NCBI GenBank assembly: GCA_900315545.1 | Contig: OMZM01000013.1 | Coordinates: 1 to 45,329 of the forward strand | Direction: 5' to 3' | Length of the DNA stretch: 45,329 bases | DNA from: an uncultured Prevotella sp. | Lineage (GTDB): Bacteria > Bacteroidota > Bacteroidia > Bacteroidales > Bacteroidaceae | Translations under genes and position numbers: made by a program | The notes under the pieces: model-generated | The model's input: the letters and a program-made list of their open reading frames with translations, nothing else | The model's database searches: none | Told to the model about the DNA's origin: nothing | Shown here: piece after piece, positions 8,124 to 35,168 of the stretch | Layout of the letters: every line of letters begins with the position of its first letter | How positions within the stretch are numbered: the first letter of the stretch is position 1

Positions 8124-8768
8124 TCATCTAAAGTCGGTCAGTCCTGCGTCGCGAGCTATCCTGCGCAGTCGCCTCATGGCCTTGCGGCATATTTGCCTTG
8201 CTCTCTCGCGCGACACTCCGAGCCATTCGCCAGCCTCAGCAAACGTCATCTGGCGGCTGCCGAAACCATATACTGCCGTCAGCACCAGCCGCTCTCGCTC
8301 GCTGAGCTTGGCAAGACATGCTGTCATCGCCTCCGGCAGTCCGTCGGCAGCCATCGTGTCGGCACCGTCTGTAGCCAGTCCGTCTGCCAGACTGCGGCCG
8401 TTGCGCCCACGTTCATCTGCCGAACGCATCTTCTTGCCCTCTGCAGCTGTTGCAGCCTTCATCCGACTGCTTACAAATCGCGAAGCATACGCTGTGAAGC
8501 TCGTGCCGCGACTGCTGTCGAAACGCTCGGCAGCTATCAGCACGCCGTAGCAGCCCTCAGCCACGAGGTCGTCCATGCTCACGCCCTTGCCGCGAAATCT
8601 CTTGGCTACGTTCACCACAAGACCGCGACATGCCTCAGTGAGGGCTGTCGCTGCCGCCTTGTCGCCGCGCTGCACGCTGTCGACAAGCTCTGCCATGAAC
8701 TCTGCCGACATCGCGGAGCCGCTGTGTCCGTCGCCAGTTCTCAATGCATGCTTTTCGCTATTCTGCAT
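8124..8768 (-). CDS. Short sigma-70 family RNA polymerase sigma factor
   Basis: Protein of 214 residues with sigma region 2 (LVVNVAKRFRGKGVSMDDLVAEG, then FDSSRGTSFTAYASRFVSSRM) and region 4 (LSERERLVLTAVYGFG, then FAEAGEWLGVSRERARQI helix-turn-helix). It looks like a housekeeping-type sigma stripped of region 1 and most of region 3, rather than an ECF factor, because region 4 keeps the SRERARQI motif of primary sigmas. A longer frame upstream is rejected: a full promoter (TTTG, 20 bases, TATTTTTG at 8797-8828) lies inside it, which fixes the start at 8768. Repeat copy A lies just upstream in the same direction. Regulon unknown. Confidence 0.85.
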   Translation of the reverse strand: MQNSEKHALRTGDGHSGSAMSAEFMAELVDSVQRGDKAAATALTEACRGLVVNVAKRFRGKGVSMDDLVAEGCYGVLIAAERFDSSRGTSFTAYASRFVSSRMKAATAAEGKKMRSADERGRNGRSLADGLATDGADTMAADGLPEAMTACLAKLSERERLVLTAVYGFGSRQMTFAEAGEWLGVSRERARQICRKAMRRLRRIARDAGLTDFR

Positions 8769-8796
8769 ATTGTTATATACTAATATAAAACGAATG

Positions 8797-8828
8797 CAAA
8801 AATACGAATAATAATCATCATACACAAA
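8797..8828 (-). promoter_or_regulatory. Promoter of the short sigma factor gene
   Basis: On the minus strand, TTTG (8825-8828), 20 bases, then TATTTTTG (8797-8804): a full match to the Bacteroidota consensus, 28 bases before the ATG. Confidence 0.75.
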
Positions 8829-8912
8829 AAAATGCGTAAATATTTGTCGATACACCGCATACTAAGCAGTTTCTGCATAGCTGTTATGGTTGACTTCATG
8901 GCTGATGTTTTC

Positions 8913-9346
8913 TTCCCCTGCAAAAACCGTGCCAAACTCGTCTGGATTTTCTTTCGGGGCGAAAAACGATGAAAATTTTTGACACGGAAAAACTGTCCAA
9001 ATAGATGCGGAACAGCCCATGAAACTGTGAAAATATGCAAAAATCGTGCTGAAACGTGCGTGCTAAAATCGTCAAAGAGCATGTTTGAGGCTGAAAACTG
9101 CATGTTTTCGCGCGGTTACGGCTTAGCAGTCATATCGTTACAGAGTGTTTGTAACGGTGTGACGGAGTATCTGTAATAGGATTACAAGATGCTTGTAAAA
9201 ATCCTGTAATCCGTATTTCAGTGTCAAAATGCTGATAGCCAACGACTTATCCGACAAGCCGAAATACTCGCGTATTTGCCGAAAAATATTTCGAGACGAC
9301 TTTCGCGGGCATTCTCGCGGCAGTAAACGGGCGAAAATTGATTATA
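8913..9346 (-). repeat. Dispersed intergenic element, copy A
   Basis: First of four copies of a non-coding repeat. Read on the minus strand it starts with ATAATCAATTTTCGCCCG and continues with GAGAATGCCCGCGAAAGTCG and ATACGCGAGTATTT (left module). The centre carries the stems GGATTACA/TGTAATCC and TTACAGA/TCTGTAA. It ends with a right module built on TTTTTCC-TGTCAAAA-ATTTTCAT and GAGTTTGGCACGGTTTTTG. Copy B is its closest relative. It ends about 145 bases before the sigma factor ATG, pointing towards it. Short open frames inside it are by-products of the repeat. Confidence 0.9.
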
Positions 9347-9532
9347 CTTTTTGTCAGTGCGCGGAGGTAGATGAGACTGGTAACAGATGATGATAAAGTT
9401 GCCAGACAAGAAGTCTCCTAAGCGGGGAGTTCAGGACCGACACAGAAACGGACTCTCATCGCGCAGACATTGCTTAGGTAACAATTATTTGATTTCCTGC
9501 AACATAAACTAAAAGCACTGTTACAGTCAATA
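9347..9532. other. Unassigned spacer between repeat copy A and the htrA terminator
   Basis: No coding frame, RNA gene or clear repeat was recognised in this stretch. Confidence 0.4.
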
Positions 9533-9575
9533 TAAAAAACAAAGGCAGGCGTGATGTTTTCACTGCCTGCCTTTG
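9533..9575 (-). terminator. Intrinsic terminator of htrA
   Basis: Stem AAAGGCAGGC / GCCTGCCTTT with extra pairs near the loop, followed on the minus strand by a T-rich run (GTTTTTTATA). It lies about 30 bases past the htrA stop. Confidence 0.9.
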
Positions 9576-9602
9576 GTGTATCGTCGTTGTTTCAGCTTGC
9601 TT

Positions 9603-11048
9603 TTACTGCTGCTGCAGTTCAACGGCGAAGTATCCCTTCTTTCCAGTCGGGTAGATACCCTTTATGTAGAGTACCGGGTCTTTGCTCGTTGATGCTTCCT
9701 TAACGGCTTTCTCCATGTCTTCGAGCGAGCGGATAGGCTGGTTGTTGACGCTCTGGATGATGAATCCCTTGTTTATTCCGCTTTGCTTCATGGCTCCGGC
9801 TTCAACCTTCATAACTTCAATTCCGTAGTTAATGCTGAGCTGTTGCTTCTGTGCATCGGTTATTTCGCGGAAGTTTGCTCCGAGTACGTCGAGGTCGGCA
9901 CTCTTCACAACCTTAGTGTTGCCCTGTGCGTTTTTCAGCGTTACGCTCTTGGTGTACTTCTTCTTGTTGTGCAGGTAGCTTATCTCCACCTTGTCGCCAG
10001 GACGCTTGCTTGCCATAATCTCCATGAGTTCTGCCTTCTTTGTAACGCTCTTTCCGTCGATAGCCGTTATTACGTCGCCTTCTGCAATGCCTGCATCGGC
10101 AGCAGCACCGTTGTCTTCAACTTTGTCAACATATACGCCGTTGTTGGTGCCGAGATCTACTTCCTTGTCTTTCTCTTTCTGTCCGTCGATGTATTTGTGT
10201 ACGTCGGTGCCCTGTATGCCGAGCAGTGCTCGCTGCACAGTGCCGTACTGCTTGAGGTCGTCGACGACTTTGTTCATTATGGTTGTCGGTATTGCAAATC
10301 CGTAACCGGTGTAAGAGCCTGTTAGCGAAAATATCATGGCATTGATGCCAACGAGTTCTCCTTGTGTGTTTACAAGTGCACCGCCAGAGTTTCCGGCGTT
10401 AATGGCAGCGTCAGTCTGTATGAACGATTCCACACCGTTGGCTCCTATTGAACGAGCTTTAGCGCTGATGATGCCTGCCGTTACAGTGTTGTTGAATCCA
10501 AATGGATTGCCAACTGCAATAACCCATTCACCCACTTTCAGTTTTTCACTGTCGCCTATAGGCAGTGTAGGCAGGTCTTTACCGTCTATTTTTATCAGTG
10601 CGAGGTCGGTAGTAGGGTCGTTTCCAATGATGCGTGCCGAGAATTCTCGGTTGTCATTGAGTGTTACGGTCAGTTCGTCGGCACCCTCTACGACGTGGTT
10701 GTTGGTTACGATGTAGCCGTCTTTAGATATGATTACGCCCGAGCCTGTGGCAGTTTTCTTTGGAGTCTGTATCTGGCGCTTCTGTGTGCCGCCGCCACCG
10801 GGATTGCCGAAGAATCCGAATGGGTCGAAGAAATCGGCAAACGGGTCCTGCACCTCAACCGTTTTGGTCTTCGAGTTTTGTACATATTTAATGTGTACCA
10901 CTGCCGGCAGCGATTTCTCAGCGGCGTATGTGAGGTCTACTTGTCCTGTTGGTGGTGTGGCAGCGTGAGTGGTTATGAACGTGCCTGTTGCGAACATTAC
11001 TGCTCCGAAGCAGAGTCCTGCAAGTAAATGCTTTGTTGTTGTTTTCAT
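9603..11048 (-). CDS. degP: Periplasmic serine protease/chaperone, Do/DegP (HtrA) family
   Basis: Envelope quality-control protease of 481 residues that degrades or refolds misfolded periplasmic proteins. The signal peptide spans about 1-30 (GLCFGAVMFATGTFITTHAA). The trypsin-like domain carries His118 (TNNHVVEG), Asp148 (TTDLALIKI) and Ser221 (NAGNSGGALV), a complete triad. A glycine/phenylalanine-rich LA-type loop (FFDPFGFFGNPGGGG) sits near residue 73-87. Two PDZ domains follow (about 280-375 and 390-475), as in Do-type members; the second has the NKGFIIQSVNNQPI ligand groove. Length fits the family. It is a single gene with its own -7 box and terminator. Confidence 0.95.
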   Translation of the reverse strand: MKTTTKHLLAGLCFGAVMFATGTFITTHAATPPTGQVDLTYAAEKSLPAVVHIKYVQNSKTKTVEVQDPFADFFDPFGFFGNPGGGGTQKRQIQTPKKTATGSGVIISKDGYIVTNNHVVEGADELTVTLNDNREFSARIIGNDPTTDLALIKIDGKDLPTLPIGDSEKLKVGEWVIAVGNPFGFNNTVTAGIISAKARSIGANGVESFIQTDAAINAGNSGGALVNTQGELVGINAMIFSLTGSYTGYGFAIPTTIMNKVVDDLKQYGTVQRALLGIQGTDVHKYIDGQKEKDKEVDLGTNNGVYVDKVEDNGAAADAGIAEGDVITAIDGKSVTKKAELMEIMASKRPGDKVEISYLHNKKKYTKSVTLKNAQGNTKVVKSADLDVLGANFREITDAQKQQLSINYGIEVMKVEAGAMKQSGINKGFIIQSVNNQPIRSLEDMEKAVKEASTSKDPVLYIKGIYPTGKKGYFAVELQQQ

Positions 11049-11329: not shown

Positions 11330-11764
11330 GTCGGAACGCAGTGTTTCGTTCTGCCGCTGGCGACATTTCGCGTCGCGAGAGGAAAGTCCGGGCAGCGCAG
11401 GGAACTCCACTTCTGAAAATGGAAGCTGCTGGCGACAGTGGGTTAAGGCAGAAGAAAACGACCGCCCCAACGACGGCGACACCATGTGTTGCTGCATGGG
11501 GTAAGGGTGAGAAGGTGTGTGTAAGAGACCACCAGCCAATGGGTGATCATTGGGCTGTGCCTGCTGGAGGCTGCAAGTTCATGTAAACCGTCGACAGAGG
11601 GTGCCCGCCCGAATTGCGGAGCCGTATGGCTGTGCATGCGACGGAGGGTAGAACGCTTGAGTTGCAGGGCGACTTGCAACCTAGATAAATGGCAGATGCC
11701 GGCTTTGCCGAGAGGCTTTGTCGGAACAGAACCCGGCTTACAGAGACACTGCTTTCCGCTTTTT
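11330..11764 (+). ncRNA. rnpB: RNase P RNA (bacterial type A)
   Basis: Catalytic RNA that trims tRNA 5' leaders. The universal core motifs are present: GAGGAAAGTCCGGGC near 11379-11393 at the 5' end, and ACAGAACCCGGCTTACAG near 11726-11743 at the 3' end. The terminal P1 helix pairs 11332-11347 (CGGAACGCAGTGTTTC) with 11743-11758 (GAGACACTGCTTTCCG) with one mismatch and one G-U pair. A T run follows and serves as terminator. A good promoter sits directly upstream. The open frames crossing it on both strands are not genes. Confidence 0.96.
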
Positions 11765-13628: not shown

Positions 13629-13700
13629 AGGTGCCTGGCGGATTCGAACCGCCGTAGACGGTTTTGCAGACCGTTGACTAAGCCACTCATCCAAGGCACC
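13629..13700 (-). tRNA. tRNA-Cys (anticodon GCA)
   Basis: Minus-strand cloverleaf: acceptor GGTGCCT/AGGCACC with T discriminator, D arm GATGAGTGGCTTAGTCAAC, anticodon stem ACGGT/ACCGT around CTGCAAA (anticodon GCA), and T arm GGCGGTTCGAATCCGCC. No CCA is encoded. It has its own consensus promoter upstream and a terminator downstream, so it is a single-gene unit. Confidence 0.97.
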
Positions 13701-16566: not shown

Positions 16567-16998
16567 ATAATCAATTTTCGCCCGTTTACAGTCGCAAGAA
16601 TGCCCGCGAAAGTCGTTCCGAAATATTTTTCGGCAAATACGCGAGTATTTTGGCTTGTTGTCTAAGTCGTTGACTGTTAGCACTTTGACTCTTAAATACG
16701 GATTACAGGATTTTTACAAGCATCTTGTAATCCTCTTACAGATACTCCGTCACATCCTTACAAGCACTCTGTAACGATATGACAGCCAATCCGTAATCGT
16801 GTGAAAACGTACATTTCCCAGCCTCAAACATGCCCTTTGACATTTTTAACACGCATATTTGACGATAATATTAACAGGTTTTCACACTTTCAGCACCTGT
16901 TCCACATCTATTTGGAGAGTTTTTCCCTGTCAAAATTTTTCATACTTTTTCGTCCCTCAGCAAAACCGCGCACACTTTGGCACACTTTTTGTAGTGAA
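16567..16998 (+). repeat. Dispersed intergenic element, copy B
   Basis: Plus-strand copy, closest to copy A. It has the left module (ATAATCAATTTTCGCCCG, GAATGCCCGCGAAAGTCG, ATACGCGAGTATTT), then the shared stems GGATTACA/TGTAATCC and TTACAGA/TCTGTAA, then TCAAACATGCCCTTTGACA. The right module has TTTTTCCCTGTCAAAA, TTTTCATACTTTTTCGTCC and TTTGGCACACTTTTTG. It ends about 140 bases before exbB and points towards it. Confidence 0.9.
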
Positions 16999-28443: not shown

Positions 28444-28451
28444 CAAAGTTA
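28444..28451 (-). promoter_or_regulatory. -7 box TAACTTTG of the PorE-like gene
   Basis: Minus-strand TAnnTTTG match abutting the left edge of repeat copy C, so the repeat supplies the sequence just upstream of this promoter. Confidence 0.5.
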
Positions 28452-28903
28452 TAATCAATTTTGGCTCGTTTACTGTCGCGAGAATGCCCGCGAAAGTCGT
28501 TTTTGAAATCAAAGGTGCAAAATACGCGAGTATTTCGCGTGTAAGCGTAACGGTCTGATAGTCAGTGTGATAGTGCGAAATATGGTCGGTTTGTGCGCTA
28601 AATACAAGTGTTAAAATTGTCAAAGAGTATGTTTGAGATTGTCAAACACACTGTTTGAGGAGGTCAGACACGGTGTTTGAGGGTGTCAAACTATATGTTC
28701 TGCAAGCCAAAACAGTAGAAACAGACGTGTCAAAGATGCTCTTTGACAATTTTAACACTTATGTTTGACCTCGAATTTTGCATATTTTTGCAGTCTGAAA
28801 GGTTTGTTTGCATCTCTTTTGCGAGTTTTTCCCTGTCAAAATTTTTCATACTTTTTCGTCCCGAAAGAAAATCCGGATGAGTTTGGCACACTTTTTGCTG
28901 TGA
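28451..28903 (+). repeat. Dispersed intergenic element, copy C
   Basis: Plus-strand copy, closest to copy D. The left module is as in the others (ATAATCAATTTTGG, CGCGAGAATGCCCGCGAAAG, ATACGCGAGTATTTCGC). The centre has a perfect 22-bp inverted repeat, 28606-28627 with 28739-28760, enclosing tandem TGTTTGA-type words. The right module has TTTTTCCCTGTCAAAA, TTTTCATACTTTTTCGTCC and GAGTTTGGCACACTTTTTG. A -7 type box TATTTTTG lies at 28783-28790. It points towards the symporter gene. Confidence 0.9.
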
Positions 28904-34712: not shown

Positions 34713-35168
34713 ATAATCAATTATTGCCCGTTTACTGTCGCGAGAATGCCCGCGAAAGTCGTTTTTGAAATCGAAGGGGCAAAAAACGCCCGTATTTCGC
34801 ATGTCTTTATAATTGTCTGACAGTCAGTTTGTTATGTTGAAATATAGCGTTTGTGTGCACGAATTGTATATGTTAAAAATGTCAAAGAGTATGTTTGACA
34901 TTGTCAAACACACTGTTTGAGGATGTCAGACATAGTGTTTGAGGGTATCAGACACTATGCTCAGCAGTGCAAAAAAGGCGAAATAGTAGGCTCAAACATA
35001 CTCTTTGACATTTTTAACACTTATCGCCGACTCGAAAATTAACATATCTTTGCGCTTTCGGAGGCTATTCCGCATCTATTTTGCAACTTTTTCTCTGTCA
35101 AAAATTTTCATCATTATTCGGCTCTGAAGAAAAACTTGATGAGTTTGGCACGGTTTTTGTAGGGCGGA
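34713..35168 (+). repeat. Dispersed intergenic element, copy D
   Basis: Plus-strand copy, closest to copy C. Left module ATAATCAATTATTGCCCG and CGCGAGAATGCCCGCGAAAG. The centre has a perfect 27-bp inverted repeat (34872-34898 with 34992-35018) that encloses TCAAACA/TGTTTGA and CATAGTGT/ACACTATG smaller stems. The right module has TTTTTCTCTGTCAAAA, TTTTCATCATTATTCGG and GAGTTTGGCACGGTTTTTG. A -7 type box TATCTTTG is at 35045-35052. It points to the flavodoxin gene. Confidence 0.9.

Follow-up and report, generated by a model that had tools for sequence, protein, structure and literature searches.

What are the non-coding blocks that recur along one contig of an uncultured Prevotella sp., and what might they do? 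The window, that is, the whole stretch of DNA analysed here (45,329 nt, contig OMZM01000013.1, assembly GCA_900315545.1), had been predicted to carry four such blocks, one on the minus strand and three on the plus strand. All four are present at the expected positions and on the expected strands, and their parts, the left motifs having been located by motif search, were mapped as follows:

8913 to 9346, minus strand: copy A, A/B type (9 copies), 432 bp in the model
16567 to 16998, plus strand: copy B, A/B type
28451 to 28903, plus strand: copy C, C/D type, 5-copy branch
34713 to 35168, plus strand: copy D, C/D type, 93-copy branch
9297 to 9315, minus strand: left motif AGAATGCCCGCGAAAGTCG of copy A
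16597 to 16615, plus strand: left motif of copy B
28481 to 28499, plus strand: left motif of copy C
34743 to 34761, plus strand: left motif of copy D
9069 to 9222, minus strand: central 22-bp register of copy A, TTACA..TGTAA dyads
16690 to 16843, plus strand: central 22-bp register of copy B, TTACA..TGTAA dyads
28618 to 28771, plus strand: central 22-bp register of copy C, TCAAACA..TGTTTGA dyads
34880 to 35033, plus strand: central 22-bp register of copy D, TCAAACA..TGTTTGA dyads
34871 to 34898, plus strand: left arm of the central inverted repeat of copy D, 28 bp, perfect
34992 to 35019, plus strand: right arm of the central inverted repeat of copy D
28609 to 28639, plus strand: left arm of the central inverted repeat of copy C, imperfect
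28727 to 28757, plus strand: right arm of the central inverted repeat of copy C, imperfect
8921 to 8937, minus strand: right-end motif GTTTGGCACGGTTTTTG of copy A, sigma-54-like (-24/-12), reading outward
16975 to 16991, plus strand: right-end sigma-54-like motif of copy B
28881 to 28897, plus strand: right-end sigma-54-like motif of copy C
35143 to 35159, plus strand: right-end sigma-54-like motif of copy D

Copy A is flanked by a sigma-70-like gene and an HtrA-like protease gene (window 8124-11048), and the best relatives of the gene adjoining it are only about 31-42% identical. The window also holds a class A RNase P RNA (11338-11756) and a tRNA gene (13629-13700).

The number of copies was determined in the source genome (2,288,422 bases in 56 contigs, 92% complete). 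The left 19-mer gave 117 matches at up to three mismatches, against 2 for a reversed-pattern control, and the right motif 134 matches at no more than one mismatch, against 0 for its control. Up to 100 matches to each motif were merged with the places found by BLAST, which made 138 places, later 145 with further motif places; 138 stretches were fetched, 137 of them distinct (L016 duplicates L015). An HMM for the element, built from the four window copies, recognised the element or a piece of it in 135 of the 137 distinct stretches and found none in L017 and L138. Both ends were present in 111 cases, 17 were cut at the end of the stretch (7 left and 10 right pieces) and 7 were otherwise incomplete or altered. 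With one further place known from BLAST, 136 places are confirmed in the 2.29 Mb of the genome, which correspond to 129-136 physical copies, since as many as 7 left pieces may each belong with a right piece at another contig end. The high genome-wide number anticipated by the original prediction is thus borne out, and the whole-genome module search that it had proposed returned many further copies.

Elements covering more than 350 of the 454 model columns were taken as near complete, and 122 qualified. In five of them (L062, L067, L073, L088 and L090) one end or both are degenerate; L021 contains an internal duplication, L095 a 15-bp insertion that brings it to 468 bp, and L109 is a short left piece. 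L067, L062 and L090 share an alternative sequence, AAAATCACAAA, after TGTCAAAA, and the right-end motif is absent from them. Short repeats like AACGGGAACGATAACC follow the right ends of L063, L105, L110, L112, L113, L116, L128 and L137.

The anatomy of the element, whose GC content is 39%, is nearly fixed. Nearly all C/D copies measure 453-456 bp, and the A/B type, at 432-433 bp, is one 22-bp unit shorter. The left end consists of a loose AAAA, three free bases and TAATCA, and the right end reads GGCAC-N2-T[TA]TTTG[CT][AT]G, with TAATCA and GGCAC..T.TTTG serving as required anchors in this analysis. In the C/D type the centre holds inverted arms and TCAAACA..TGTTTGA dyads; in the A/B type, TTACA..TGTAA half-sites occupy the same 22-bp register and the left arm is absent. 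Self-identity of the centre at a lag of 22 is 0.52 versus 0.26 after shuffling, and that of the right block at a lag of 66 is 0.49 (shuffled controls cover lag 22). At the middle of the central dyad, three neighbouring columns are split C69/G28, A70/T28 and C70/G28 among 98 copies, as if this dyad had been inverted in 28 of them. The centre had been described as variable; its half-sites do differ by type, but the 22-bp register is constant and the C/D half-sites are among the most invariant columns.

Clustering of the 111 copies gave 9 of the A/B type, two C/D branches of 5 (with C) and 93 (with D) copies, and 4 single outliers. The predicted division into A/B and C/D therefore stands, with the correction that C and D belong to separate branches of the C/D type and that outliers exist. 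No protein is encoded, as had been foreseen: the longest stop-free runs reach 43-96 codons and no frame is conserved, and length differences of 1 bp among copies shift it. In line with the original prediction, no described family was found to match. At gathering score Rfam gave no match to the elements, and the open-licence PMC literature yielded no account of a family like this one.

How strongly is the sequence constrained? Across 98 aligned C/D copies, 149 of 454 columns show at most one deviant and 215 show at least ten, and indels are confined to nine places. Because the conserved columns had been defined on the same data, a held-out test was made, in which columns invariant in 49 copies deviated in 0.6% of cases in the other 49, against 33% for variable columns. 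Among 16 reciprocal nearest pairs, with columns taken from the same data, differences amount to 0.25% in conserved and 25.7% in variable columns. All copies were found through the left or right motif, so that the motif columns are partly selected, and the central ones are not. At many of the variable columns each of the four bases occurs, and linkage decays almost to background over tens of bases, a pattern that we read as long independent evolution of the copies.

A second strain offers a small comparison. An exact-motif scan of genome contigs uncovered one copy (L160) on contig JAFVDX010000004.1, titled Paludibacteraceae RGIG5082, the sole copy found in that bin. The stretch is 97.8% identical over 2,161 bp to locus L023 of the source genome, so it comes from the window's species or a very close one, and its label is apparently a binning error. 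Over positions 1-475 it corresponds to locus L139 on the left and to L023 on the right, the two parts being joined in the central palindrome; they differ from these loci by 5 in 155 bases and 4 in 294 bases, respectively. All nine differences lie outside the 206 columns that have five deviants or fewer (p=0.0043), and outside the 149 that have no more than one (p about 0.03); the cut-offs were chosen by us, and the single contig used joins two loci. The comparison is small, though the copies compared stand at fixed sites. L139 and L023 have a 79-bp identical run in common, and the stretch may represent either recombination between copies or a chimeric assembly. Purifying selection on each copy is supported by the constrained columns together with this small two-strain comparison.

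Left and right halves of the copies correlate at r=0.24, whereas a random split of the same columns gives 0.60; the weakest correlation, 0.08, is that between left and centre. This suggests that copies have exchanged parts. Breaks lie in the centre in a relic in L044 (column 202), in L009 (column 280) and in L160 (about columns 155-235); other incomplete copies (L062, L067, L090 and L109) end elsewhere than in the centre.

The elements avoid genes. With genes called by our codon-usage caller, overlaps with a gene never exceed 60 bases in the 122 near-complete elements, in surroundings of which 83% was called coding. The 108 copies with both neighbours lie between divergent (36) or convergent (25) genes, or within tandem pairs, co-directionally in 26 and counter-directionally in 21 cases, that is, with no preference of orientation (p=0.56). 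The right-hand gene is co-directional in 66 of 114 cases (p=0.11); in the other 48 the right end of the element faces the 3' end of its neighbour. Intergenic regions that bear an element are longer even without it (medians 225-365 bp versus 16-189 bp for 152 others). A marker of the replication strand was considered and rejected, the GC skew of the flanks in element orientation being 0.004 ± 0.005.

Moreover, the copies keep their distance from one another. On contigs with at least two confirmed elements or pieces, 88 centre-to-centre intervals were measured, with a median of 11.9 kb and a mean of 14.8 kb; the shortest, 6.16 kb, leads to the short piece L109 and the next, 6.26 kb, separates window copies C and D. 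No interval is below 6 kb, where 32.6 were expected and the fewest in 20,000 shuffles was 19, and the coefficient of variation is 0.57 versus 0.96 ± 0.09 for uniform placement. Intervals minus the minimum follow an exponential (KS p=0.37), as expected if copies were placed at random except within a strictly excluded distance of about 6 kb. A-type copies are likewise spaced, their nearest other places being 7.7-29.8 kb away. The exception is a 181-bp relic 141 bp from an intact copy in L044, which the spacing test omits. It also omits three right-motif-only places at 1.4, 1.7 and 3.8 kb from listed places, all inside fetched stretches and with no HMM match there, and five further motif places, four of which have neighbours, all more than 6 kb away. 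Short contigs lost in assembly probably do not explain the spacing, because most copies are assembled through. Deletion between direct repeats was also rejected as a cause: same-orientation pairs account for 11 of 32 intervals below 10 kb (p=0.11), and inverted pairs are absent below 6 kb too.

Is the family found elsewhere? Copy D was searched against 399 genomes of the genus, its own included, in a shallow search that scored two candidates per genome, so that weak families could be missed. Matches at E≤0.001 occurred in five genomes, and no full copy was met in the 398 others. Besides the source genome, another species (G005) carries one right half of a copy, G137 only related dyads, and G059 and G246 matching stretches some 40 bp long. 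When copy A was searched more deeply against 40 genomes, it matched the source genome, G005 and, as short pieces, G001. The exact motif had three matches in genome contigs, one being the element and two the motif alone, and no match in viral contigs, scans which may leave out the source genome and near ones. Two other species of the genus (G137 and G010) possess intergenic palindrome arrays, most spaced by 22 or 66 bp (L151, 1497-1653; L155, 1459-1591 and 1633-1712; L170, 1370-1765 and 2086-2169); one kind of palindrome in G137 resembles the C/D dyad and the others differ. A 22-bp palindrome register may be common in the genus.

Taken together, the fixed length, phased dyads, invariant blocks, gene avoidance, indifference to orientation and 6-kb exclusion fit best with a protein-docking element, and we tentatively prefer the view that this dispersed non-coding DNA serves in place as a docking site for a multi-protein complex. 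The sequence, phasing and fixed length of such an arrangement are directly visible; the left block, the array of 22-bp-phased dyads and the right block would be binding sites held at fixed helix distances. The family would have spread anciently by a transposition-like process, each copy having since presumably been maintained by purifying selection, and near neighbours would be excluded within about 6 kb because close copies are harmful or redundant, unless inserted copies themselves repelled new ones. Because context and orientation do not matter, the likeliest role would concern the chromosome as a whole, in DNA architecture, topology or a function linked to replication, instead of the regulation of adjacent genes. 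The more specific proposal of an acquired genome-architecture element, whose conserved 450-bp docking sites, about 6 kb apart at the least and indifferent to orientation, divide the chromosome into domains, we regard as rather unlikely. Against docking, no protein partner was found, the family was not found in the other sampled species of the genus, which is odd for a housekeeping role, a relic lies beside an intact copy, some copies are degenerate and the left and right halves correlate less than a random split. Conservation could also stem from selection for transposition competence, as the main rival holds. On this view, which we consider possible, if doubtful, the element is mobile, non-autonomous and of a novel type; machinery acting in trans would recognise the conserved blocks and refuse targets close to an existing copy (target immunity). 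Mobility with immunity explains the dispersal and the spacing equally well, and the high number, the intergenic position and the failure to find full copies in other sampled species agree with it; some 290 bp from the right half in G005 lies a frame that, judged by eye, resembles an IS3-like transposase. However, no terminal inverted repeat was found (60-base ends gave 8.0 versus 6.6 ± 1.3 when shuffled), and the target duplications at both ends that the original prediction had suggested looking for were not found in 109 copies (12 set aside, 1 without left anchor) for k of 3-10; the best z, 2.6, is unremarkable given the many offsets. No autonomous partner with the same ends was met in the fetched stretches. 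The most alike copies are only about 93-94% identical, which argues against a recent burst, and mobility accounts less well for the scarcity of relics in the fetched stretches and for strain differences that avoid constrained columns. The predicted non-autonomous mobile unit thus retains its explanation of dispersal and does not by itself explain conservation site by site.

Two further readings were considered. The right end matches the published sigma-54 consensus (TGGCACN5-7TTGCT; PMC12316311), and the whole could be a sigma-54-dependent promoter-enhancer cassette, its dyads being sites for an enhancer-binding protein and its right end an outward -24/-12 promoter; this we judge improbable. 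The sequence TTTGGCAC is invariant in all 98 C/D copies, an invariance partly selected since the right motif served to find copies. In 109 anchored copies the base that follows is C in 80 and T in 29, and the one after it A in 59 and T in 50. In 449 kb, exact TGGCAC-N5-TTGC occurs 83 times inside elements and 6 times outside; TTGGCAC-N5-TTGC sites number 98 in the source genome and at most 16 in each of 199 others. The genome also encodes rpoN (one strong and one borderline domain match) and one strong activator among four domain matches, which appears to carry a C-terminal helix-turn-helix. A promoter role for neighbouring genes is nevertheless disfavoured by the indifference to gene orientation described above, and we retain the sigma-54 reading as a rival, or regard the motif as a site that is bound for some other purpose. 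The regulatory cassette once proposed thus keeps its sigma-54-like right end and lacks any preferred orientation. A family of large structured non-coding RNAs seems very improbable. Single copies do fold better than shuffles (z -5.76 for D and -3.05 for A), the folding of D coming largely from its central inverted repeat, and the nine A/B copies reach consensus folds of -65.3 and -82.9 kcal/mol on the two strands, with little covariation. However, the 93 C/D copies together give a weak consensus fold of -30.5 kcal/mol, against -140.5 for D alone, with almost no covariation term; the A/B type has other half-sites in the register and no left arm, and Rfam offers no match at gathering score. Bacteroidetes promoters carry the box TAnnTTTG within the full pattern TTTG-N17-21-TAnnTTTG. 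Of the 98 copies, 50 have the box on the plus strand (9 of them preceded by a loose TTG) and 86 on the minus strand (30 so preceded); the full pattern occurs in none. The suggestion of a structured RNA therefore finds no support for the main type.

If the copies act in place, they would give direct access to the way in which a bacterial chromosome is partitioned into domains; if mobile, they would represent an element without visible terminal repeats or duplications whose copies repel one another strongly on a genome scale. On either reading, the spacing rule is directly testable.

Among known systems, Mu, Tn7 and Tn3 display target immunity, by which a copy keeps further copies out of nearby DNA, and the transposase sites of Mu and Tn7 are 22 bp long. 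The likeness lies in the depletion of neighbouring copies, seen here with one relic excepted, and in the 22-bp sites; in contrast to those transposons, the dyads here are central rather than terminal, and no terminal repeats, duplications or transposase were found. Of the properties of MITEs, the element is short, non-coding, multicopy and intergenic, and terminal inverted repeats and target duplication were not found. Sigma-54 promoters resemble the right-end motif in having TGGCAC-N5-TTGC, and RpoN and an activator are present, but here the motif has no fixed relation to a downstream gene and is not directed at a gene start. The BrickBuilt MITE of Porphyromonas gingivalis (PMC4596501) comprises 19 copies of 84-991 nt with 1 to 22.8 repeats of 23 nt, IS5-like terminal repeats and some target duplications. 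It is similarly species-restricted and always intergenic, with an unlike leader and tail around its 23-nt repeats, which recalls the 22-bp register; the present family differs in its ~130 copies, fixed length, spacing of at least 6 kb and the absence of detected terminal repeats or duplications. Its register is near-constant (exceptions L021 and L095) rather than variable in repeat number, and by inspection its ends, TAATCA and TTTTTG[CT][AT]G, are not the IS5-like GAGACC.. of BrickBuilt. PMC2817692 describes REPs and BIMEs as intergenic palindromic elements in more than 100 copies, a likeness to the present family, and as binding sites for gyrase, IHF and polymerase I. In contrast to the present 450-bp element, with its 39% GC and unlike ends, REPs are short, GC-rich palindromes that carry GTAG-type heads and are associated with RAYT transposases; by eye, the consensus of the present element holds no such palindrome. 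Since REPs and BIMEs bind these proteins, the docking role that we tentatively prefer would have a precedent among dispersed intergenic repeats.
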